Shown here one piece after another: positions 2,512 through 16,445 of a stretch of DNA of 24,327 bases. Numbering within the stretch: position 1 is the first letter of the stretch; every line of letters starts with the position of its first letter. The notes under the pieces are model-generated. The model was not told where the DNA came from and searched no databases. It saw only the letters and a program-made list of their open reading frames with translations. The stretch spans positions 1 through 24,327 of the IMG/VR virus record IMGVR_UViG_3300030104_000103. One strand, written 5' to 3'. A program made the translations under genes and the position numbers. The stretch is from a virus.

Positions 2512-4350
2512 TTAATGTATGTCACCCCAGTTTTTACCGGACTCGTAGTCTACCTTGTTTGGTATCTCCAAGTCAACTGCTGATTCCATAACTTCTTTTA
2601 TTAACTTAGCTTGTTTATCATTCTCTACAGAAATATCTAGTTCATCATGTATTTGTATGTGAGGTATAATACCTTCTTTGTACAAATCTAACATAGATTT
2701 TTTAGTCATGTCTGCAGCTGATCCTTGTATTAATTTATTTAATGCTTTGTATGTATATGCACGTTTGATACCTGGACCATGTTCTTGTACTGCTTGTTCA
2801 AATGGTAATGCTTTATGCATACCAAAACTATTTGGTTCCCATAAATGGAAACGACAAAGTCTACCAAGTAATGTACGTATCTGTCCTCGTTGTTGTGCTC
2901 TGTTTGATACACTTTTCATTAATGTTCTAACAAAAGGTACTCTGTTATGGTAGACAGAAAATAATTCTTCTGCTTTGTCTTTTGACACACCAAGCTCTGC
3001 TTGTAGTTTAGCTTTACCCATGCCATAAAATAGACCTAGGTTAATTGTTTTAGCTTGATCTCTTGGTATTTGTGCCATCTTTGCAACGATAGTATGAAAG
3101 TCTGCATCACCTTCGTTGTATGCGTCTTTAACATTAAAGACACTAGAGTCTTGATCTAAGGATGCATAATGCACTACGAGTCTTGGTTCTTGTTGACTGT
3201 AGTCAAAGCATCCCCACTCGCAACCCGACTCAGGTATAAAGAGGGATCTGATCAAAGGACCTAAGTCTTTGTTGCGCGCAGGAATTTGTTGTAGATTAGG
3301 ATTGGAATAAGAAAATCTTCCGGTTACTGTTCCTCCACTATCAGATCTAATTTGATTTATATCTGCGTGTATTCTACCTTTATGTTCGTATTTAATAATT
3401 GTATCAATGAATGTAGTATGTGCCTTGTTAATCTCTCTAGCTTTTGCTATACATTTAACCAAAGGATGTTCATGAGAAGAAAGAAAATTTTTAGTAAATG
3501 ATGGAGAATTTGTTTTGGCGGTTAGGTCATATGGTAGGGACAGTTTTTGAAAAACTTTCTCGATACTGCGTGCTGCCCATATTTGAACATCTACTTGTGT
3601 TTCTTTTTTTATCTTGTGTAATAATTCTTTTTCTTGTTCAGCTAATTGTTGCTTTAATTTGTGAGCACCTTCTACGTCTACACGCACTCCTAAAAAACGC
3701 ATATCAACGAGGCAAGGAAAAAGTTGTGTCTCTAAATCAAAAATAGATCCTAGGTCCTGGTCGCTTAATTCTTTTTGCATGACTCTCCACAAAGCTAACG
3801 TTAACTCTGCATCACGTTCAGCATAGTTACCAACATACATTGCTGGCATTTTCCACATGTCTGCTTTAGGATCTAGTCCCCATTCTTTTGCAGCTGCAAC
3901 TAATTCTGTTTCGTTTTTACCTCGACCACAATAATCCCAACCTAAAGATCCAAGATCATATCTAAATCTATTTTCATTAACTAATGATGCAGCAATCATA
4001 GTGTCATATAAATTTCCATTTAATTTTATTCCCATCGAACGAATCCAACACACATCATACATTGCATTATGAAAAACTTTGTCTGCCGGACATTCACAAA
4101 TGTCCTTAAACCATTGTAAAACCTTGCTTTTTTCAAGGTTACCACCGCCTTCGTGATCGAAAGGAAAGTATCCTGCGTAGCCATCAACAGCAATTGCTAT
4201 GCCTACTACTTTACCTCTACCAACAATAGAACCTGTTCCTAAACTTTTTAAATCTGGATCATGTGTTTCTAAATCAATAGCAATTGTATCTGCTTGTCTT
4301 AAATCTGGAAATTCTGTAGGCTTTACCCACTCTGTTTGTGCTTCAATCAT
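2512..4350 (-). CDS. polA: Family A DNA polymerase with 3'-5' exonuclease domain
   Basis: This is the replicative phage DNA polymerase, 612 residues, without a 5'-3' exonuclease domain. The proofreading domain has Exo I DLETHD (D26, E28), Exo II HNAMYDVCW (N95, D99) and Exo III NYAERD (Y176, D180). The polymerase palm has motif A DYSQQEPR (D383), motif B RDQAKTINLGLFYGMG (R430, K434, Y442) and motif C IHDE (H568, D569, E570). It ends NWGDIH, like T7-type polymerases. The residue matching Phe762 of E. coli Pol I is Leu438. Thioredoxin-loop content is not obvious. The start overlaps the DUF3310 stop by 4 bases (ATGA). It lies downstream of the primase and helicase genes in the same operon, so these proteins probably act together. 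Confidence 0.97.
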   Translation of the reverse strand: MIEAQTEWVKPTEFPDLRQADTIAIDLETHDPDLKSLGTGSIVGRGKVVGIAIAVDGYAGYFPFDHEGGGNLEKSKVLQWFKDICECPADKVFHNAMYDVCWIRSMGIKLNGNLYDTMIAASLVNENRFRYDLGSLGWDYCGRGKNETELVAAAKEWGLDPKADMWKMPAMYVGNYAERDAELTLALWRVMQKELSDQDLGSIFDLETQLFPCLVDMRFLGVRVDVEGAHKLKQQLAEQEKELLHKIKKETQVDVQIWAARSIEKVFQKLSLPYDLTAKTNSPSFTKNFLSSHEHPLVKCIAKAREINKAHTTFIDTIIKYEHKGRIHADINQIRSDSGGTVTGRFSYSNPNLQQIPARNKDLGPLIRSLFIPESGCEWGCFDYSQQEPRLVVHYASLDQDSSVFNVKDAYNEGDADFHTIVAKMAQIPRDQAKTINLGLFYGMGKAKLQAELGVSKDKAEELFSVYHNRVPFVRTLMKSVSNRAQQRGQIRTLLGRLCRFHLWEPNSFGMHKALPFEQAVQEHGPGIKRAYTYKALNKLIQGSAADMTKKSMLDLYKEGIIPHIQIHDELDISVENDKQAKLIKEVMESAVDLEIPNKVDYESGKNWGDIH

Positions 4351-4556
4351 TTATAGTCTCTTTCAATAATCATTTCTATAAAGTGTATTGCCTTCAATAA
4401 ATCTTGTTTCTTTCCTTTATCGCGGTGGCGAATAATATATTTTATAGCACATCCCTCTGGGTATAACAACTCATTTTCAACTACAAACTTACTGGGTTGA
4501 ATTTTATATTTTTGGTAGTGACTCCCGCCATGCTGCTTGTTCCAAACTTTACTCAT
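4347..4556 (-). CDS. DUF3310 family protein
   Basis: A 69-residue protein matching the DUF3310 family, a small protein found widely in phages and sometimes loosely annotated as a nucleotide kinase. The family features are present: SHY at residues 12-14, KIQPSKF at 18-24, then GCAIKYIIRHRDKG at about 35-48 and a final amphipathic helix DLLKAIHFIE. Function is not established; it usually sits among nucleotide-metabolism and replication genes, as here. AAAGGAG 8 bases upstream supports the start, which overlaps the UvrD-like gene by 4 bases; the end overlaps PolA by 4 bases. Confidence 0.9.
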   Translation of the reverse strand: MSKVWNKQHGGSHYQKYKIQPSKFVVENELLYPEGCAIKYIIRHRDKGKKQDLLKAIHFIEMIIERDYK

Positions 4557-5998
4557 AGTTTAAACTCCTTTGATTTATTTTTGCATTTAATTACAAACAA
4601 GTTTTGCATTGTTCTTGTTGTTCCCACATACCAAACTCTAAATTCTTCGTCTTGTTTTGCCTGAGATTTTTTTGCTCCTTTAATTGTATTAGTAGTTTGA
4701 TTTAAAAATAAAACTACATTAGTTGCTTCTCCACCTTTTGCGCCATGTATAGTAGAAATTTTTATTCTTGGATCTTTAGATAAATCTTCTTTGTTAGTTA
4801 ACATTGCTTTCATGTACTCTTTTTGTGATAACGAACCTGTGTTAAACGCTTCGTACCATTCTTTAGTAAGATCCTTGTCGCCTGATACTCGTTCCTTGAT
4901 TCTTTGTTCTTGTACCTCGCCAATAGGTTCACCGCGTTTTAATTTATCCCAAGATAAAATATCTTCATACAAACTTTTACCAATACTATTTCCTTGAGCT
5001 GTACTAAAAAATAATCCTTTACGTTTTAAATAAGGAGCTATAGGTTTTAACAACGCTTTAGTTCTAGTAAGAATTAACCAGTCTCCTTCCGTTAAATCTA
5101 TGTCATTTAATTTATATCTTTCAAAAATATTTCCTACTTCTCCTTTAGGTAAATAATCTTTTTGTATTCTATTATAATAAATTCTGTTGATGATTCCTAA
5201 AGCTTTTTGTTGTACAATACTCGGCACTCTTTCAGATTTATTTAAAAGTATTTCTCTTGACTTCCAATAAATAAAAGAATCTACATCTGCACCAGCCCAA
5301 CCAAAGATAGCTTGATCATCATCACCTGCTACCCATACATCACACCCTGTATCTTTTTCTAGTTTTTCTATAATAGACCATTGTATTAATGACAGGTCTT
5401 GAGCTTCATCTACAAAAATAACTTTAAATTTAGGTATCTCATCACGATGTTGTTTTAAAAATTTTTCTAGCATATCGGTAAAATCAATTAGGCCGTATGT
5501 TTTTTTATAGTTTTTTATTTCTGTATCTATGGCTAGTAGTTTACTTCTTTCTATCCAGGTTAAATGTTCGTTAAGATCAAACTGATCTTCTACCGGTATT
5601 TGTTTAACCCTGGCTAAATTAATTAAACTTAAATATTCGCTATCAGATGAAAAGATTCCGTTAAAATTATTTGTTTCGTAAGCTGCGTATTTAATTTGTA
5701 TACCAGCACTCTCTCCTATTGCTTTGTAATTGCCCTCTTGCATTACGTTTTCTTCTTTTAATGATAAATTATTAAATGCTAATGAGTGCAAAGTTTGAAA
5801 GTACTTTACATCTTTTTTATCTAAATGATGATTTTGAGCTAGGAATCTATCTCGTGCTTCACCAGCTGCCTTACGTGTAAATGCAAAGTAACCTATTTGA
5901 TTTAAACGTGTGCCATCTTTTACATATTTATGTACAGTATTTAATAATCTTCTTGTCTTACCTGTGCCTGGTGGACCTACAACTTTATATCTAGCCAT
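4553..5998 (-). CDS. UvrD/PcrA-like superfamily 1 DNA helicase
   Basis: A 481-residue ATP-dependent DNA helicase. Motif I is GPPGTGKT (residues 8-15), motif Ia YFAFTRKAAGEA (about 37-48), motif II FVDEAQD (195-201), motif III GDDDQAIFGWAGA (225-237), motif V ISTIHGAKGGEA (about 412-423), and motif VI WYVGTTRT near residue 457. It is much shorter than bacterial UvrD (about 720 residues), so the 2B insertion is reduced. In this operon it follows the primase and precedes PolA, and no DnaB-type replicative helicase is visible in the window, so it may be the fork helicase or a Dda-like initiator or recombination helicase. Its start overlaps the primase stop (TAATG). Confidence 0.95.
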   Translation of the reverse strand: MARYKVVGPPGTGKTRRLLNTVHKYVKDGTRLNQIGYFAFTRKAAGEARDRFLAQNHHLDKKDVKYFQTLHSLAFNNLSLKEENVMQEGNYKAIGESAGIQIKYAAYETNNFNGIFSSDSEYLSLINLARVKQIPVEDQFDLNEHLTWIERSKLLAIDTEIKNYKKTYGLIDFTDMLEKFLKQHRDEIPKFKVIFVDEAQDLSLIQWSIIEKLEKDTGCDVWVAGDDDQAIFGWAGADVDSFIYWKSREILLNKSERVPSIVQQKALGIINRIYYNRIQKDYLPKGEVGNIFERYKLNDIDLTEGDWLILTRTKALLKPIAPYLKRKGLFFSTAQGNSIGKSLYEDILSWDKLKRGEPIGEVQEQRIKERVSGDKDLTKEWYEAFNTGSLSQKEYMKAMLTNKEDLSKDPRIKISTIHGAKGGEATNVVLFLNQTTNTIKGAKKSQAKQDEEFRVWYVGTTRTMQNLFVIKCKNKSKEFKL

Positions 5999-7566
5999 TA
6001 GTAATTACTTTCCTTTCTTACCACTGGTTTATATTCTATTTTATCTACATGTAATTGTACAACCTTACATACCTTAAGAGTTTTACCATCTACGTTTAAT
6101 GAATGATCAAACTCTACATTACATTTGTCTTTTAATTTTTGTGCAATCTTTTCTTCTGGTATTTTCCAACCATTGCCTAAGTGTTCAATAAAAGAATTAA
6201 ACCTAAAGTAATGATAGCCTTCTTCTGTATAACAAGAACCATTGTGTATTTGACTACGTTGATGTGCTTGTGGTCCATTAATACAATATTGAAATAGTTC
6301 TTCTTCTAATCTATCTTCTATCTGTGTGCCTTTAGGTGGTGTAATTTTTTGTCCATTTCTACGCCATTCATTTAATTTTGCTCTAAAGTCTTTTGGTTTT
6401 AATGGCTCAAAGTATACACCTGTCTGTTGCCATACTAAATTTAAAACTTCTTTCTGAGTTGTCATCAGTTTTGTATTAGTAATTACTACCTGTATCTTGT
6501 CATCGTTAGGCATAATAACATTAAACCTGTATTCAGGTTCTGCATAAGTTATCATTTCAAAATCTTGTATTTCTGGAAAGACAGAAATGCTATCTGACTT
6601 AACACCAAAAGGTCTTTTGTAACAAAGACTTCGCATACATTTATCTTTGATAGGATCTTCATAGCAAGTGTGTCCTGCAGTTTCTCCTTTCCATGCTTTT
6701 ATTTTAAGATCTAATTTTGCTTTGTCCCAAGGGTTTTCTAAATAACTATAGTTTGCAGCCGATACTTGATCAGGCCATTTGTCTTTGTATTTCTTTTTAG
6801 CAAAGACCATATAGTTGTACATAAACCTATCTCTACCATCATCAAGTTTTGTTTTAGAACACAATGCTAGACATGGTGGACCGTCATCAAATTCTTTGTT
6901 AGTGCCTACTAAGATATTGCTGTGTGTTTCTTCAACAAGTTTATCTAAAGTTTCTTTGTCAATCTTAGATTCGTTAGCAAATTTTATAAATGCTTCTACT
7001 GATAATTTAGAATTGTTTTTGTCTACTGCGTATCTATTAGAATTACCATTGTCATAGTATGGTAAGTTTATAAAGTTTCCTGGTTTTATGTCGCCTTTGT
7101 CATCCTTCTGTAATTCTTTCTGTTTAGGAAAAACCTCTGTCGTAGGCTTTAATCCCAGTGGTAGTAGAAAAGCCTTTAATGCTTCTATCAAATCCACCGT
7201 AGGGATAGCCTCCTTTAAAAATATATAACAATGTAGTCCACCACTTTTAGAAAGTATAGGAACTAATGGTAATTTGTATTGTTGAAATAATGCTAGATAA
7301 TTTTCTATTTTAAATGTTCCGTAGTCTGGTGGGTCAATGTCTATACAACCAAACTGTGCTGTCTTATCAATTCTACAAGGTTGTATACCAATAGATTTTT
7401 TTCCTTGTAAGTGATTTAGATAATCTGAATTAGTGACAGGTCTACCTGCCCATTCGTAGTTAGGTTTAATTTTGTTTTTATCAGTATCTAAAGATGTATT
7501 AGACATGTCGGCCATGCCAAAATCACCTTCATACCCTTTAAACAACTCTATAAATTCTTTATCCAT
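5998..7566 (-). CDS. Archaeo-eukaryotic-type primase-polymerase (AEP superfamily)
   Basis: A 522-residue protein whose N-terminal third has the AEP (PrimPol) catalytic pattern: FGCIDIDPP with D76 and D78 as metal ligands, then KSGGLHCYIF (S106-H112, the sGxH nucleotide-binding motif), EVFPKQ (144-149) and NFINLPYY (164-171). This arrangement is close to the primase domain of TOTE conflict systems and related phage primases. A middle segment carries C232, C236, C301, C310 and C315 (CLALC, then HTC and CMRSLC), a plausible zinc site. The C-terminal part may be a helical primase-associated domain. It would make primers for PolA. A GC-rich hairpin lies directly upstream. No DnaG-type zinc or TOPRIM motif is seen. 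Ends in ESNY, as does the neighbouring putative ssDNA-binding protein. Confidence 0.88.
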   Translation of the reverse strand: MDKEFIELFKGYEGDFGMADMSNTSLDTDKNKIKPNYEWAGRPVTNSDYLNHLQGKKSIGIQPCRIDKTAQFGCIDIDPPDYGTFKIENYLALFQQYKLPLVPILSKSGGLHCYIFLKEAIPTVDLIEALKAFLLPLGLKPTTEVFPKQKELQKDDKGDIKPGNFINLPYYDNGNSNRYAVDKNNSKLSVEAFIKFANESKIDKETLDKLVEETHSNILVGTNKEFDDGPPCLALCSKTKLDDGRDRFMYNYMVFAKKKYKDKWPDQVSAANYSYLENPWDKAKLDLKIKAWKGETAGHTCYEDPIKDKCMRSLCYKRPFGVKSDSISVFPEIQDFEMITYAEPEYRFNVIMPNDDKIQVVITNTKLMTTQKEVLNLVWQQTGVYFEPLKPKDFRAKLNEWRRNGQKITPPKGTQIEDRLEEELFQYCINGPQAHQRSQIHNGSCYTEEGYHYFRFNSFIEHLGNGWKIPEEKIAQKLKDKCNVEFDHSLNVDGKTLKVCKVVQLHVDKIEYKPVVRKESNY

Positions 7567-7580
7567 AATGATCCCGGGTC

Positions 7581-7610
7581 GGGGTAGTTAAACTCTCGCC
7601 TCCCTACCCC
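7581..7610 (-). promoter_or_regulatory. GC-rich hairpin / G-run element upstream of the primase gene
   Basis: The 63-base gap between the 251-aa gene and the primase is unusually GC-rich for this genome. In the transcribed strand it forms a perfect 7-bp stem (GGGGTAG with CTACCCC, loop 16 bases). An alternative stem pairs GGGTAGGG (7609-7602) with CCCGACCC (7583-7576) with one mismatch; the two stems exclude each other. Four G runs (GG, GGGG, GGG, GG) in 7602-7616 could also form a two-layer quadruplex. No U-tract follows, so it is not a classical terminator. A role in attenuation, RNA processing or translational control of the primase is inference. Confidence 0.45.
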
Positions 7611-7621
7611 TATCCTCATAA

Positions 7622-7648
7622 AGAGGAATCTAGTAATTAGATTCTTCT
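7622..7648 (-). repeat. Inverted repeat spanning the stop codon of the 251-aa gene
   Basis: GAATCTA (7626-7632) and TAGATTC (7638-7644) form a 7-bp perfect inverted repeat with a 5-base loop. It extends by three more pairs after one mismatch in the transcribed strand. It lies over the last codons and TAG stop of the 251-aa gene. It is AT-rich and lacks a U-tract, so it could be a weak terminator, an mRNA-stabilising 3' stem or a binding site. Confidence 0.35.
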
Positions 7649-8385
7649 GTAGTTGTAGCTGCAGCGTTACTCTGTTTTAAAGAGTTATGGAATTCTTTCG
7701 CCATTTGATATAGCGATGCGTTATCCACTTTCCTTGCCAGTGATACTCTGTACCCGTGCCAAGTAAAACTCCCTGAGTTTTCAACAGAACTTAAATTATA
7801 AATTCTAGAAAACATAGGTGCCGGTAAAGCTTTGCTAGTTTTAGGATCAGTTTCAAATTGATCTTGCATTAAAGAGTTCCAACCTCTACTCACTTTTAGT
7901 TGAGTAGATTTCATAGCCATTAAAGCTTTTTCTGGTTTCTCTCCGTTAATGATTACAAAATGATTTGCTGTTTTGATAATTTCATTACCATTATCTAAAC
8001 AATCTTTTCCTTGAGCATTCTTTTTTGTTTTAAGAAGAATATCAGCTCCTCTGTCAGGACTGACAGGTCTGCCCTCTCTTCTTTCAAAAGGTGCCCACTC
8101 TGGAAATGTCAATTTGTAAAAGCAAGGTATAATTTCTATACCCTTCTCTCCATCATACAGTCTTTTAGTTACTGTATTATAGAACATTCCTGCTTCTGCT
8201 CCTTCAACATAGTTCGCATGTTTCTTTTTAGTTTCATCCGAACCGCTTTGTAATAACTTAAGAAATGGTAAAGCTAAATCGTCTTTATCAATTGTCTCAA
8301 GTCCAGCACCAGCGTCTTGAATAAAATTCAATTCTGCCGGTAAGTTACCTTCTTTTTTAGTAACGTCACTTGTTTCTTGTGTCAT
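7630..8385 (-). CDS. Conserved phage protein, possible single-stranded DNA-binding protein
   Basis: A 251-residue soluble protein of a family common in replication and recombination modules of phages. Recognisable blocks are LALPFLKLLQSGSDE near residue 37-51, EGAEAGMFYNTVTKRLYDGEKG, and a central FPEWAPFERREG. The position just before the primase, helicase and polymerase, and a low-complexity polar C-terminus (NAAATTTEESNY), fit an ssDNA-binding protein, but the tail is not strongly acidic like SSB or T7 gp2.5. I place it in that role by context only. AGGA about 9 bases upstream supports the start, one base after the previous stop. It shares its last four residues, ESNY, with the primase. 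Confidence 0.75.
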   Translation of the reverse strand: MTQETSDVTKKEGNLPAELNFIQDAGAGLETIDKDDLALPFLKLLQSGSDETKKKHANYVEGAEAGMFYNTVTKRLYDGEKGIEIIPCFYKLTFPEWAPFERREGRPVSPDRGADILLKTKKNAQGKDCLDNGNEIIKTANHFVIINGEKPEKALMAMKSTQLKVSRGWNSLMQDQFETDPKTSKALPAPMFSRIYNLSSVENSGSFTWHGYRVSLARKVDNASLYQMAKEFHNSLKQSNAAATTTEESNY

Positions 8386-8386
8386 G

Positions 8387-8953
8387 TTATTTGTTCCTTG
8401 TTATTTTTGTTTTGTTTCCCTTAAACAGATTAAAATGTTCAGAAGGCAAATCTCCACCACTTTCAACTCGCTCTCTGTACAGTGCTTTTAATGTCATAGG
8501 TTCTACCTTTAATTTTTGTTGTGGTTGGTAGCCTTGACTTTCTGCAAGGTTAGCATAAGTGCTAGCCTTATCATCTTCGCCACGACCAAAGGAAACAGTA
8601 ATCTCATTCTTAATAAGATCACCCAGGTCATTGTCTCGAAGCCATCTAAACGCATTCTCCTTTTGTGCTACAGGAATTGTTGCGCTATAAACTTCTTTAA
8701 CTTCTATGGCAGAACCATCTTGAAGTTTAAGAGTTTTTAATTTCATCTGATCCATAATTTCAGGGATCACTTCTGCTGATATTTTATCTGCTTGAGCTTT
8801 CTTTTGTTTTAAAAGATGCTCCTCTTTTTCTATTTCAGATTCTAATCGTTGCAAATCTAAAACATATTTAGATAAATTATCTACGTTTGCTAATTCATTC
8901 ACTTGTTCTGGTGAATCTTCTACAAACATTTGTTGTAGGTTTTCATTACTCAT
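8387..8953 (-). CDS. Conserved phage replication-module protein, unknown function (188 aa)
   Basis: A 188-residue protein: an acidic N-terminus, a coiled-coil segment (about residues 26-57, KYVLDLQRLESEIEKEEHLL onward), a central FGRGEDDKA block and a C-terminal block (TLKALYRERVESGGDLPSEH followed by FNLFKGNKTKI) that recurs in many phage proteins of this position. Function is not known. AAGGAG 6 bases upstream is a strong ribosome site. The start overlaps the 122-aa gene end by 8 bases. It probably belongs to the same operon as the putative ssDNA-binding protein and primase. Confidence 0.75.
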   Translation of the reverse strand: MSNENLQQMFVEDSPEQVNELANVDNLSKYVLDLQRLESEIEKEEHLLKQKKAQADKISAEVIPEIMDQMKLKTLKLQDGSAIEVKEVYSATIPVAQKENAFRWLRDNDLGDLIKNEITVSFGRGEDDKASTYANLAESQGYQPQQKLKVEPMTLKALYRERVESGGDLPSEHFNLFKGNKTKITRNK

Positions 8954-9305
8954 CTATTTCTCCTTTCTCGTATAGATTTATTCTTATTGGATAGTACGTG
9001 CTTTCCTGTCTGTCCCATTTTAACAAATTATAAATTCCATTTGTTATATCGGATACTACTGAACATGCAATTCCAATTATAGCTGGATCGCCTGTTAATA
9101 ATAAATAATCTTCTTGCGTAAAGTTTTTTAACTTTTGTCTAAGATTATAAATTATAGGTCCAGGACTGAAAATTATTTGGGAATCTTCTTTCAACAAGAC
9201 TTTTATATCGCCATGTTTTTGAGCACCCATAATATTTATTTTAGGTCTACCTATTCTAGTGCCTGGAATTTCTTGGATAACATATACTTTTGATCTGTCT
9301 TTCAT
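8946..9305 (-). CDS. Conserved marine-phage protein, first gene of the replication operon (about 119 aa)
   Basis: A soluble protein with blocks KVYVIQEIPGTRIGRPKINI, GAQKHGDIKVLL, DYLLLTGDPAIIGIA and LLKWDRQESTYYPIRINLY. It resembles a conserved family that opens the replication modules of marine phages; its function is unknown. I choose ATG 9305-9303 as the start. The frame extends to a TTG at 9314, but the predicted minus-strand transcription start (about 9306, from the -10 box at 9318-9313) would leave that TTG outside the mRNA. No Shine-Dalgarno precedes either start, so the transcript is predicted to be leaderless or nearly so. Confidence 0.78.
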   Translation of the reverse strand: MKDRSKVYVIQEIPGTRIGRPKINIMGAQKHGDIKVLLKEDSQIIFSPGPIIYNLRQKLKNFTQEDYLLLTGDPAIIGIACSVVSDITNGIYNLLKWDRQESTYYPIRINLYEKGEIDE

Positions 9306-9307
9306 GC

Positions 9308-9341
9308 TTGACAATATAGGGACTAATCATTATATTGTCAA
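9308..9341. promoter_or_regulatory. Interlocked divergent promoter built on an 11-bp perfect inverted repeat
   Basis: TTGACAATATA (9308-9318) is repeated exactly, inverted, as TATATTGTCAA (9331-9341) around a 12-base centre. On the plus strand this gives -35 TTGACA (9308-9313), a 17-base spacer and -10 TATATT (9331-9336). On the minus strand it gives -35 TTGACA (9341-9336), a 17-base spacer and -10 TATATT (9318-9313). Each strand's -35 therefore overlaps the other's -10. Both are near-consensus sigma-70 promoters. They drive the plus-strand helicase (start 9357) and the minus-strand replication operon (start 9305). The geometry predicts that RNA polymerase can use only one direction at a time; the palindrome could also be an operator for a dimeric repressor. 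Confidence 0.85.
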
Positions 9342-9356
9342 CTAGAAAGAAGAACT

Positions 9357-10787
9357 ATGAATTATAAATTTAAAACTAAACCTTACGCGCATCAAATGAC
9401 TGCGTTAGAAAAGTCGTGGAACAAAAAAGTATTTGCGTACTTTATGGAAATGGGAACAGGTAAAACAAAGGTCGCTATAGATAATATAGCTATGTTGTAT
9501 GATAATGGTAAAATCAATGGTGCCTTAATTATTGCACCCAAAGGTGTGTATAAAAACTGGTATTCTCAAGAAATACCCACACATTTACCTGACCATATTA
9601 AACCTATTACTGTGTTATGGCAGTCTTTAATTAATAAAACACAACAAGATAAACTAGATACCTTATTTAAAACAGGTCATGATCTACATATATTAGTTAT
9701 GAATGTAGAGGCTTTTTCTACTAAAAAAGGTGTAGACTTTGCTGCTCGTTTTTTAAATTCTCACAATACTTATATGGCTATTGATGAGTCTACTACTATT
9801 AAAAACCCTGGTGCTAAACGTACAAAAAATATTGTATCTTTAGGTAAAGCTGCAAAGTACAGACGTATTCTTACAGGTTCACCAGTTACAAAATCACCAT
9901 TAGATTTATATAAACAATGTGAGTTTTTAGATGAATATTTATTAGACCATTCTTCTTATTATACATTTAGAACTAGATACGCAGTAATGCGTAAAGCTAT
10001 GTTTAATGGTAGATCCGTAGAAATAGTTGTTGGCTATAAAAATTTAGGAGAACTATCTGACAAACTAAAACCTTTTTCTTATCGTGTGTTAAAAGATGAT
10101 TGTTTAGATTTGCCTAAAAAAACTTTTATGAAACGTATAATTACATTATCTGCAGAACAAGACAAATTATACAAACAAATGAAACAAATGGCTTTAGCAC
10201 AACTCAATGGCAAAATGGTTACTAGTGCTAGTGCACTAACGCAATTAATGCGTCTACATCAAATAACTTGTGGTCATTTTAAAGCCGATGATGGTTCAAT
10301 ACAAACTATTAAAAACAATAGACTTAACGAGATTATGGAGCTGTTAGAAGAAGTAGAAGGTAAAGCAGTCATATGGGCCCACTATCAATACGACGTACAT
10401 GAATTAGTAAAAGCTATAAGTAAAGAATATGGAGAAGAAAGCGTAGTTACTTACTATGGATTAACGCCACAAGAGGAAAGACAGGACAATATTAAGAGAT
10501 TTCAGGATGACCCTAAGTGCCGGTTTCTTGTTGGAACCCCCTCTACGGGCGGCTATGGGATCACTTTAACGGCTGCTAGCACCATGATTTACTATTCTAA
10601 CGGATATGACCTAGAAAAACGTCAACAATCAGAAGCTAGAATTGATAGGATAGGACAAGAAAAACCCATGACATACATAGATATTATATGCGAAGATACG
10701 GTAGATGAACGTATTGTAAAAGCTTTACGTAAAAAAATAAACATAGCAACAGAGATAATGGGAGAACAATTAAAAGAATGGATATAA
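9357..10787 (+). CDS. SNF2-like superfamily 2 DNA helicase/translocase
   Basis: A 476-residue SF2 ATPase. The Q-motif region is PYAHQMTALE (9-18), motif I EMGTGKT (31-37), motif II DEST (143-146, a DEAH-box variant), motif III TGSP (173-176), motif V GTPSTGGYGITLT (about 393-405) and motif VI QSEARIDRIGQ (424-434). The RIGQ form of motif VI and the order of motifs are those of SNF2-family translocases, and compact versions are common in phages. These proteins track on double-stranded DNA, remodel protein-DNA complexes and aid replication or recombination. It is the first of only two plus-strand genes in the window, transcribed from the divergent promoter at 9308-9341 with a purine-rich AGAAAGAAG ribosome site 4 bases before ATG. 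Confidence 0.95.
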   Translation: MNYKFKTKPYAHQMTALEKSWNKKVFAYFMEMGTGKTKVAIDNIAMLYDNGKINGALIIAPKGVYKNWYSQEIPTHLPDHIKPITVLWQSLINKTQQDKLDTLFKTGHDLHILVMNVEAFSTKKGVDFAARFLNSHNTYMAIDESTTIKNPGAKRTKNIVSLGKAAKYRRILTGSPVTKSPLDLYKQCEFLDEYLLDHSSYYTFRTRYAVMRKAMFNGRSVEIVVGYKNLGELSDKLKPFSYRVLKDDCLDLPKKTFMKRIITLSAEQDKLYKQMKQMALAQLNGKMVTSASALTQLMRLHQITCGHFKADDGSIQTIKNNRLNEIMELLEEVEGKAVIWAHYQYDVHELVKAISKEYGEESVVTYYGLTPQEERQDNIKRFQDDPKCRFLVGTPSTGGYGITLTAASTMIYYSNGYDLEKRQQSEARIDRIGQEKPMTYIDIICEDTVDERIVKALRKKINIATEIMGEQLKEWI

Positions 10788-10987
10788 TTAAAATTTATAA
10801 AAACAATCGTGGGACTATTCTTAGAACGTTGGTCTATACCATAGGACATTTTTTTATCGCTGCTGGAACTCTCTTAGTTTTATCTGATGTGCCTGTAATA
10901 ATAGCAATGACTGATGCTATAGTAGAACCTTTGTTAAATTCAATTTGGTATTTTGTTTTAGACAAATGGTGGGCTAGTAAATCTTAG
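10778..10987 (+). CDS. Small membrane protein, DUF2061-like
   Basis: A 69-residue protein: a basic N-terminus (MDIIKIYKNNRGTILRTLVY), a hydrophobic helix (about residues 20-45, GHFFIAAGTLLVLSDVPVII) and a second hydrophobic segment ending in NSIWYFVLDKWW. The pattern resembles DUF2061-type small membrane proteins, with a conserved Glu-Pro and a Trp-rich end. Function is unknown. Its start overlaps the helicase gene by 10 bases, so it depends on the same plus-strand transcript. The gene stops at 10987 and the next gene converges on it. Confidence 0.7.
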   Translation: MDIIKIYKNNRGTILRTLVYTIGHFFIAAGTLLVLSDVPVIIAMTDAIVEPLLNSIWYFVLDKWWASKS

Positions 10988-14700: not shown

Positions 14701-16445
14701 ATAGTTTTTTGTATGTCTACAACAGGTTGTCTTAAAACTTCTGGTAAATTTTTAAGAGGTATTTCACCTTTTAAATATTTTAGCACATCATCCCAATATT
14801 GTTTACCTGCAGATACACTTGATGTTGTAAAAACTTTATTACCAAATCCTTTGTTTAATAAATTGTATATAGATCTATCTATTCTTTTGAGATCAATTCC
14901 TATAGATTTTTTATATTTGTTAGTCATTCTCTCACCTTGAAGCATAATTTGTTTTGCTTCTTTAGTAAAAGGTCCCCTAACTCTTAACGGTGTAAGTATA
15001 AATTTATCTGCAGCAGCCATTAATCTTTCTGACATTGGACCCATAGTTGTAGAAAAGAATCCCCATTTTTCTAATGGTGGTATTTTTTGTGTAATAAATC
15101 CACCGCCTTTTTTAATAGCGTTAACTGTTTGAGGCACACCTGATTTTCTACTAGCTAAAATTTTAGACACAGGGTTAAGAACTAAAGTATTAAAAGGTGC
15201 AGCCGTTGTTTTATAAATCCCTTTGGCAGTTGCACCAGCTACTCCTATAATTTTACCAGCAGCTAATGTTAAACCACCAATTAATACTGTGCCTTCTGCA
15301 CCGTGTATTAATTTTCTTTTTAAAATTTCTGCAGCTTTTTTACTGTTACTTAATTTGTCAAATTTTTCTTTATCGATAGGTGGCATAAAACCAAAACCTT
15401 CTGTAAAGGTAGGTTTTTCTTCATCTGCTGTAATTGTTCTACCTACTCCATACTTTACAGGTAGACCCCAAAACCCCATTTTTTGTGCAATGCTTGATGC
15501 ATATTTTATATTACCAAACTGATCTGTTAGTGTTTTACCAGACTTATCTACTTTAGCTTTTTTCTTTGATAATCTTTCTACAATTTTTTTAGTAGTTCCC
15601 GGTGCTGCTTTTTTAGCAACATAACCAAAACCTTTTATTATTCTACCACCTAAAAATGTATCAATACCAAACTGTGTAAGCTCGTCAGTTAATTCTTGTA
15701 TAGCACTGTCTTGATTAAAAGGTTGTGATTTGTTTGGGTACTGAATATCATCAGCTCTTGGCCAATTGTTTTCTATATATTCTAATGCGTTAATTGCATT
15801 ATCAGGGCCAACGGCATCTACTAACATAGCAGCCCATCTAGTTATTTCTCTAGTTGTATCTAAAACAGGTTCTACAAGTCCAGATATAATTTTAGTAGAT
15901 GTTTTACCATAATATTCTTTTTGTTTAGCTTTTGCTATTTCGTCTTCTCTGTACGCAAGGTCATAAGATTTAGCTCCCTGTAATTCAAATGCAGTTAATC
16001 TATCTACTGTTTTTTCACTAAATAGTTCAGGGTTATCAGCTACAAACTTTAATCTTTTATTTGGATATAATAATATATTAGATTCGCCAGCTTCTTTAGC
16101 AGCTTTGATTGATCCATATTTTTGCACAACAGAAATATAATCTTTAACAACATCGGGGTTGTCTCTAAATATATCTAAGTATCTAAGAGTGCTATCTTTG
16201 TAATCTGCAGGTAAAGTGTTGACATAACTTCTTTCTTGAGTTGACAATAGATCAGGTTCCATCAACCCTTCTTCAATAAGCTTTTGATTTATTGTTTCAA
16301 CTTTTTCGTCAGCTTGTTTTGTAATTGACTCAAGATCAAGCTTCTCATTTATTTGAGACATGATCTCTTCTACTTTACGATCTAGTATAGCGTTTTTATC
16401 TTCGAGTTCTTTGTTGGGAAAAAAGTTTTTGTTTGAATCTGCCAT
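11718..16445 (-). CDS. Very large internal virion / DNA-ejection protein (1575 aa)
   Basis: The largest gene in the window. The N-terminus (about 180 residues) is charged and helical. A glycine/alanine-rich hydrophobic stretch occurs near residues 380-405 (IGGLTLAAGKIIGVAGATAK). A conserved block near residues 1040-1105 (YPNYNMVPSLVRNWRRLPVG, then NFVAFRSETIRN) is found in large inner-core proteins of marine podoviruses, so I assign it to the ejectosome that enters the cell envelope during DNA delivery. The C-terminus is acidic and low in complexity (IEVEPQSSIIPEEKTTQVSE). I see no confident lysozyme, transglycosylase or RNA polymerase motif. It follows the 371-aa gene with a 5-base gap and ends at the holin-like gene with a TAATG overlap. 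Confidence 0.72.
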   Translation of the reverse strand: MADSNKNFFPNKELEDKNAILDRKVEEIMSQINEKLDLESITKQADEKVETINQKLIEEGLMEPDLLSTQERSYVNTLPADYKDSTLRYLDIFRDNPDVVKDYISVVQKYGSIKAAKEAGESNILLYPNKRLKFVADNPELFSEKTVDRLTAFELQGAKSYDLAYREDEIAKAKQKEYYGKTSTKIISGLVEPVLDTTREITRWAAMLVDAVGPDNAINALEYIENNWPRADDIQYPNKSQPFNQDSAIQELTDELTQFGIDTFLGGRIIKGFGYVAKKAAPGTTKKIVERLSKKKAKVDKSGKTLTDQFGNIKYASSIAQKMGFWGLPVKYGVGRTITADEEKPTFTEGFGFMPPIDKEKFDKLSNSKKAAEILKRKLIHGAEGTVLIGGLTLAAGKIIGVAGATAKGIYKTTAAPFNTLVLNPVSKILASRKSGVPQTVNAIKKGGGFITQKIPPLEKWGFFSTTMGPMSERLMAAADKFILTPLRVRGPFTKEAKQIMLQGERMTNKYKKSIGIDLKRIDRSIYNLLNKGFGNKVFTTSSVSAGKQYWDDVLKYLKGEIPLKNLPEVLRQPVVDIQKTIEKLSKEIKPYVKSEEIKKEIVDGMGKYLTTSYEIFQGSFKPDQTKINAATNYFVDLIKKTNKKYKNVKEGSKLWPELSRLASQKVDEIIQYGKEGASPIKRMQAITSLVTPDKILAKKQTLPKVIEDLMGKINNPITVITDTVTQQAQLLSHLFTHKQILKEGLRSGWIVTDPEKFAMEGVQKYVAKSLVPIQTIARTSNIDIAKIYTRGKKGNYFTTPEIANGIASDALATDFLLQWAPYKAFLAAKTTAQLSKTVLSLMTQTRNFETAMFFSLMQGHIGAHASVLDAMKYVFGEVVGSGRINPNVMRKKLKEYSDEGIIDSSVVAGEVEAIIGDIAANRFANTDQLFKYMLQNPIFRKATEFYQASDNVWKAYGYEFTKSQMLAAIPIRGLTTEAAKKLGYVVESGRTVPYKWQDLVSNQFREVFKMKWNPLNLDGSEKTYGKALKEIAAKYIVDVYPNYNMVPSLVRNWRRLPVGNFVAFRSETIRNIYNTLAYGTRELTSSNPFLRQMGARRLIGLNATLYGFQEGLFAATGAITNIDEDFIRKYQRWFSPWYDKNSTIYPISKIRDDKTFWTLNWSREQPFEGVQDAVEAVTSKMFNTDQSDDAIYTRFFKGFFYDYDEKKKGGFTLLFEPFLEEAILTEAILDITPKSFGVPGARGGETKTGSIIFDMRNDSFDVILGKSVAHLIDAINPTTFKNVSKVLKAAEGDLTKSADKYNTTNELLKLFLGLGAKKENPINSITYVINDFTGRITSADKDFKRDTTNPQKIIEDPFLLPKEFNDLQMNKYREYSRAYEFVKFLQDDLKLSRYQIVKELRNRRGFSQVTINMLLSGKFNASNLPPLEVTSIYPKMLERIKKNNPEKYGDLKLTDIFDRSELIGIKNKWMRVPLGLNGEQLEHWFLTGELLEKEPIEVEPQSSIIPEEKTTQVSEAITIPNNVPVETADVSQEVVKTAALPTNVNKDTGLTSTEEALLSNAEKALRKKQRNITT

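Follow-up and report, generated by a model that had tools for sequence, protein, structure and literature searches.

A 34-bp palindrome between the helicase and replication genes of a pelagiphage-like virus very probably carries two interleaved, opposed host-type promoters

Bidirectional promoters have been described in E. coli, Salmonella, and other prokaryotes by Warman, Grainger, and colleagues as elements whose symmetry allows polymerase to bind in two opposed orientations (PMC12825309, PMC10268837). In the published class, the two directions share a -10 element, and start sites lie 7 to 25 bp apart, commonly 18 bp; bacterial promoters in general are said to conserve their -35 elements poorly (PMC10268837). 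Steric constraints bar simultaneous binding of polymerase at such promoters, and in five E. coli cases basal activity was too low for competition, which was seen only once one -35 element had been strengthened (PMC12825309). Overlapping core promoters of divergent genes with a short intergenic region are also described for Tn10 tetR/tetA (cited in PMC11686294). Pelagiphages of the HTVC023P type are reported to occur widely in the ocean (PMC9599517). The sole transcriptome study found that the early HTVC027P genes are all of unknown function and named no promoters (PMC12753301), and a literature search, covering mostly non-subscription papers, found no pelagiphage promoters of interleaved form.

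The window analyzed here covers 24,327 of the 27,460 bases of a virus record, for which the complete genome is probably about 60,000 bp. Its source is a pelagiphage-like virus whose nearest named relatives are Pelagibacter phage HTVC027P and phage 023Pt_psg01, with HTVC023P more distant; HTVC027P and 023Pt_psg01 contain the same divergent junction, at the ends of their records. Positions 9308 to 9341 of the window read TTGACAATATAGGGACTAATCATTATATTGTCAA, with perfectly complementary 11-bp arms and a 12-bp center, and 28 of the 34 positions are identical to those of the reverse complement (Table 1). A reading made earlier from the sequence alone (the sequence-only reading) had claimed an 11-bp perfect inverted repeat with TTGACA and TATATT at 17-bp spacing on both strands, and this was confirmed; each set matches 11 of the 12 positions of the sigma70-type consensus. 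The same reading had each -35 element overlapping the -10 element of the other strand. Such an overlap is present, but it amounts to one base on each side (9313 and 9336), so that the elements abut with no wide overlap. The two -10 elements are separate and 12 bp apart, and the divergent starts, predicted from sequence only, are about 37 bp apart (near 9306 and 9343).

Table 1. Coordinates of the element and of neighboring features in the window
Feature	Position	Strand	Basis
Interleaved divergent promoter pair (predicted), palindrome TTGACAATATA-N12-TATATTGTCAA	9308..9341	none	sequence; arms kept in relatives
-35 TTGACA, helicase-side promoter	9308..9313	+	sequence
-10 TATATT, helicase-side promoter, 17-bp spacer	9331..9336	+	sequence
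Predicted transcription start, helicase side	about 9343-9344	+	inferred
-35 TTGACA, replication-side promoter	9336..9341	-	sequence
-10 TATATT, replication-side promoter, 17-bp spacer	9313..9318	-	sequence
Predicted transcription start, replication side	about 9305-9306, on ATG itself	-	inferred
SNF2/superfamily II helicase (PF00176, PF00271), first gene of plus-strand island	9357..10787	+	domain matches
Small protein, DUF2061 match just below curated cutoff; last of plus-strand island	10778..10987	+	
Pam3_gp32-like (PF23992), heads replication-side operon, predicted leaderless	8946..9305	-	start ATG 9305
Remaining replication-side block: Pam3_gp33-like, Pam3_gp34-like, primase, UvrD-like helicase, DUF3310, DNA polymerase A	2512..8953	-	

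With a usable -35/-10 set on each strand, within one polymerase footprint and between divergent genes, the element belongs to the overlapping divergent sigma70 promoters, a known kind, in a geometry that is new. Like the bidirectional promoters, it is predicted to combine symmetry-based opposed binding, divergent transcripts, and steric exclusion. It differs from them in its consensus -35 elements in both directions, and it falls outside the published definition because its -10 elements are not shared and its predicted start spacing exceeds the 7- to 25-bp range. Divergent genes, overlapping core promoters, and a short intergenic region are shared with Tn10 tetR/tetA, from which the window differs in that no regulator gene was found among the genes scanned and the dyad as such shows no sign of selection. 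The early promoter regions of HTVC027P and HTVC023P are found at the corresponding junction, where a superfamily II helicase diverges from a replication block; the HTVC027P-type regions have a shared -10 element and the HTVC023P-type regions an apparent -35 overlap, and neither has the TTGAC...GTCAA pair.

An 11-bp inverted repeat alone was present in 60 of 200 simulated windows, and the rarity of the palindrome was rejected as evidence because such repeats are common in DNA this AT rich. Promoter-like sites were not in excess (80 in the window versus 83 in shuffles), so single consensus matches at other positions carry little weight. Promoter scores came from a hand-entered matrix based on what is generally known of E. 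coli promoters, which may not fit the SAR11 sigma factor; with such a matrix, a site inside a gene, at 15223, scored slightly above the 34-bp element. Interleaved pairs of promoters, each matching at least 11 of 12 consensus positions, within 30 to 40 bp occurred in 0 of 400 simulated windows. Conservation in relatives is a stronger argument than this simulated rarity and, as far as sequence can tell, the decisive one.

Relatives were collected by means of the helicase and the first minus-strand gene and were reduced to 218 distinct upstream regions. A search of these relatives for the palindrome between the same genes, by which the sequence-only reading could be checked, found both arms kept: of 130 distinct regions, which are phylogenetically correlated and not independent samples, 122 had TTGAC...GTCAA ahead of this helicase, namely 77 of the 82 of window type and 45 of the 48 of psg01 type. 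Shuffles of the same upstream regions contained the pair in 19 of 26,000 cases. In the three psg01-type exceptions (L147, L188, and L200), the palindrome lies 196 to 247 bp upstream of the helicase, with a small plus-strand ORF between the two in L188 and L200; the element thus tracks the point of divergence and not the helicase. The five window-type exceptions carry an HTVC027P-type promoter. Within the 34-bp class, the arms were conserved at 1.91 bits versus 0.85 bits for the center, and mean -10 scores in the two directions were 2.76 and 2.18, compared with 0.32 and 0.37 in shuffles with fixed arms. The earlier proposal of divergent promoters facing the SNF2-like helicase island and the replication genes is therefore supported for promoters of sigma70 type, the arms of which are kept in relatives.

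Among 2.9 million viral contigs scanned, the exact arms were found in at least 118 viral stretches, all of which adjoin the helicase and/or the Pam3_gp32-like gene; the span was 34 bp in 111 of the matches listed. Bacterial and archaeal genomes (257 Gb) yielded 10 matches to the exact arms, none beside these genes. The contexts of these matches were mixed, with no common gene pair, and they were rejected as instances of the same system. In 6 of the 10 bacterial contigs (L501 to L510), the arms also span 34 bp, which sets the spacers at 17 bp, and some of these matches may be genuine interleaved promoters.

The palindrome is likely to be explained by two overlapping host sigma70/RpoD core promoters that face in opposite directions and are interleaved, with starts as predicted. 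The rightward promoter would fire into the SNF2-like helicase and the leftward promoter into the replication operon. The mirror symmetry would then reflect the packing of two near-consensus promoters, with spacers of about 17 bp, into 34 bp, with no protein-binding dyad.

A regulated switch, in which the palindrome serves as operator for a dimeric regulator, of phage or host, that picks the transcription unit, is an improbable reading, although the perfect 11-bp dyad in the window's lineage and the perfect arms of at least 11 bp in 24 distinct window-type regions are what it would predict. Overlapping divergent promoters with an operator between them are also known, examples being Tn10 tet (cited in PMC11686294) and the pLS20 conjugation switch (PMC4207663). 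Across the family, the dyad was not conserved as a dyad. The span of the arms is 33, 34, 36, 37, or 38 bp according to lineage, and a shift of up to 5 bp argues against a rigid dimer site, which should not tolerate such drift. Despite this drift, the best -10 element usually lies 16 to 18 bp from its own -35 element; for the 33-, 34-, and 38-bp classes the -10 peak stood at 16 to 17 bp in one direction or both, and for the 36- and 37-bp classes it was diffuse. Arm matching within loci showed no excess over that between loci at three redundancy levels (4.88 versus 4.70, 4.77 versus 4.71, and 4.94 versus 4.42 of 12 positions; P = 0.10 to 0.44), so the symmetry is what two similar promoters would give by themselves. 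One-sided changes are also tolerated: in five distinct regions TTGACACTATA stands opposite TTGACAATATA, which breaks the dyad and keeps a good -10 element, TATAGT.

No match to the HTH_3 regulator fold was found in the incomplete 27,460-base record, and no regulator was found among the scanned neighbor genes, several of whose proteins belong to no family; a switch is therefore unsupported, although a regulator may be encoded elsewhere in the genome. The product of the first replication-side gene resembles a CARF/SAVED-type fold in its predicted structure and not a helix-turn-helix. The sequence-only reading had seen in the palindrome an ideal dimer-binding operator and in the junction a built-in two-way choice. 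Neither claim is supported, given the behavior of the arms, the missing HTH_3 match in the 27,460-base record, and sister clades that keep the gene pair with nonpalindromic promoters. Arm drift, the lack of covariation, and these alternative geometries of sister clades fit two overlapping host promoters and not a dimer operator.

It is very unlikely that only one promoter works and that its mirror half arose incidentally from AT-rich, TTGAC-like sequence. Part of the psg01 clade has a poor replication-side -10 element at the right distance (e.g., TAAACG at 18), which speaks for a single promoter and against the interleaved pair. The right arm, however, is kept in the 122 regions noted above and in three others stays with the point of divergence; the -10 elements of the window are equally good in both directions, and long divergent gene blocks are headed on both sides, with no other intergenic space. 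Least probable of all is a DNA hairpin or cruciform, such as a replication origin or packaging site, since the strong fold of the window strand (z = -6.0 relative to shuffles), which adjoins the replication genes, was not general among representatives (average z = -1.15 with TTGAC/GTCAA ends fixed; 11 of 46 no better than shuffles), the center and stem sequence vary across clades, and no Rfam match was found.

Under the interleaved pair of host promoters, polymerase with host sigma70 would bind in one of two orientations and never in both at once. Mutual exclusion at 9308 to 9341 is physically likely, and the consensus -35 elements in both directions make competition between polymerases plausible. 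With one orientation at a time, each genome copy would most likely fire stochastically either way, and such firing from early infection would lead to comparable initiation on both sides with no dedicated regulator. Because the elements are equal on both sides and no regulator was found, the simplest reading would be constitutive, roughly balanced, stochastic firing with no decision circuit. A more far-reaching proposal is that the element represents a distinct interleaved bidirectional class, in which -35 elements are packed against -10 elements so tightly that competition is real without activators, and that it acts as a regulator-free allocator that sets, for each genome copy, how many helicase transcripts are made relative to replication transcripts, one of the two mRNAs being leaderless through the packing. 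This proposal is tentative, and we hold it to be rather unlikely. If starts map as predicted, the published 7- to 25-bp range would miss the interleaved class.

The ORF list starts the first minus-strand gene at TTG 9314, inside the palindrome. The true start must be ATG 9305, because the conserved motif VYVIQE follows within a few residues and there is no earlier ATG. The gap between the replication-side -10 element and this ATG is 7 nt in the window. Across window-type regions, the -10 element ends 6 to 8 nt before the minus-strand ATG in 61 of 77, as measured from the best-scoring -10 element and thus not fully independently of the promoter call, though the distance from arm to ATG varies (most commonly 4, 7, or 8 nt). 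A gap of 6 to 8 nt places the predicted mRNA start at the AUG or one or two bases before it, and the replication-side mRNA is accordingly predicted to be leaderless in the window's lineage. In psg01-type regions the gap is mostly at least 17 nt, that is, with a leader. The helicase mRNA would have a leader of about 13 nt containing AGAAAG (9344..9349, plus strand), a purine-rich, ribosome-binding-like sequence that is kept in most relatives and may act in ribosome binding. This asymmetry between a leaderless replication side and a leadered helicase side is new relative to the first reading.

Sister clades arrange the predicted promoters of this junction differently. HTVC027P-type regions lack the right arm; toward the helicase they have TTGACT with TATATA, and toward the replication genes TTTACT (plus-strand AGTAAA; two regions have TTTGCT) opposite an overlapping TATATA. 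A -35/-10 set in each direction was found, by a loose pattern, in 39 of 39 of these regions with a TTGAC box, and AGTAAA could alternatively be kept for helicase translation. Predicted starts are 19 to 21 bp apart, inside the published range, and this version of the junction fits the shared -10 form of bidirectional promoters. A plus-strand ORF likewise sits immediately before the helicase in two HTVC027P-type regions (L278 and L285). HTVC023P-type regions appear to have a third layout with overlapping -35-like elements, a weak classification made by eye; in the tree, their labels come from a loose text pattern and are unreliable in that distant clade.

In the helicase tree, the window, psg01, and HTVC027P fall in one clade, and the interleaved form is spread over its two branches; the shared -10 form arises within this clade about three times (in L085, in L051, and in the HTVC027P group). 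Of two more distant phages, DSL-LC04 keeps the divergent pair and has no TTGAC...GTCAA motif, and Pam3 has the helicase and gp32-type genes both on one strand. A natural series is thereby available for one divergent gene pair: at least two geometries, the interleaved and the shared -10, are well supported, and a third is probable, with the shared -10 form having taken over from the interleaved one about three times. Such a series can help to show under which conditions overlapping promoters compete, and the helicase/replication junction provides a concrete starting point for the study of transcription initiation in pelagiphages.

The Pam3_gp32-like protein gave a confident AlphaFold2 model (pLDDT 87.5). 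Structural matches listed for this model were nearly all CARF/SAVED cyclic-oligonucleotide-binding domains (Z = 6.1 to 8.0), and the best Foldseek match was a viral SAVED ring nuclease (E = 7e-3); by sequence, the best matches of the protein to solved structures were chance-like. A DNA-binding fold was considered for this first protein of the operon and rejected, the arrangement found instead being CARF/SAVED-like, with modest scores. It is perhaps a single-domain CARF-like phage protein, a lead suggested by the model, as Z scores of 6.1 to 8.0 can reflect a mere common arrangement. Relatives of the protein were found in 111 phage records. Elsewhere in the replication neighborhood, a SET-domain protein (PF00856, E = 7e-8) was found at 2028 to 2396 on the minus strand, and the primase at 5998 to 7566 (minus strand) matched the archaeo-eukaryotic primase domain of TOTE conflict systems (PF22548, E = 2.7e-12).
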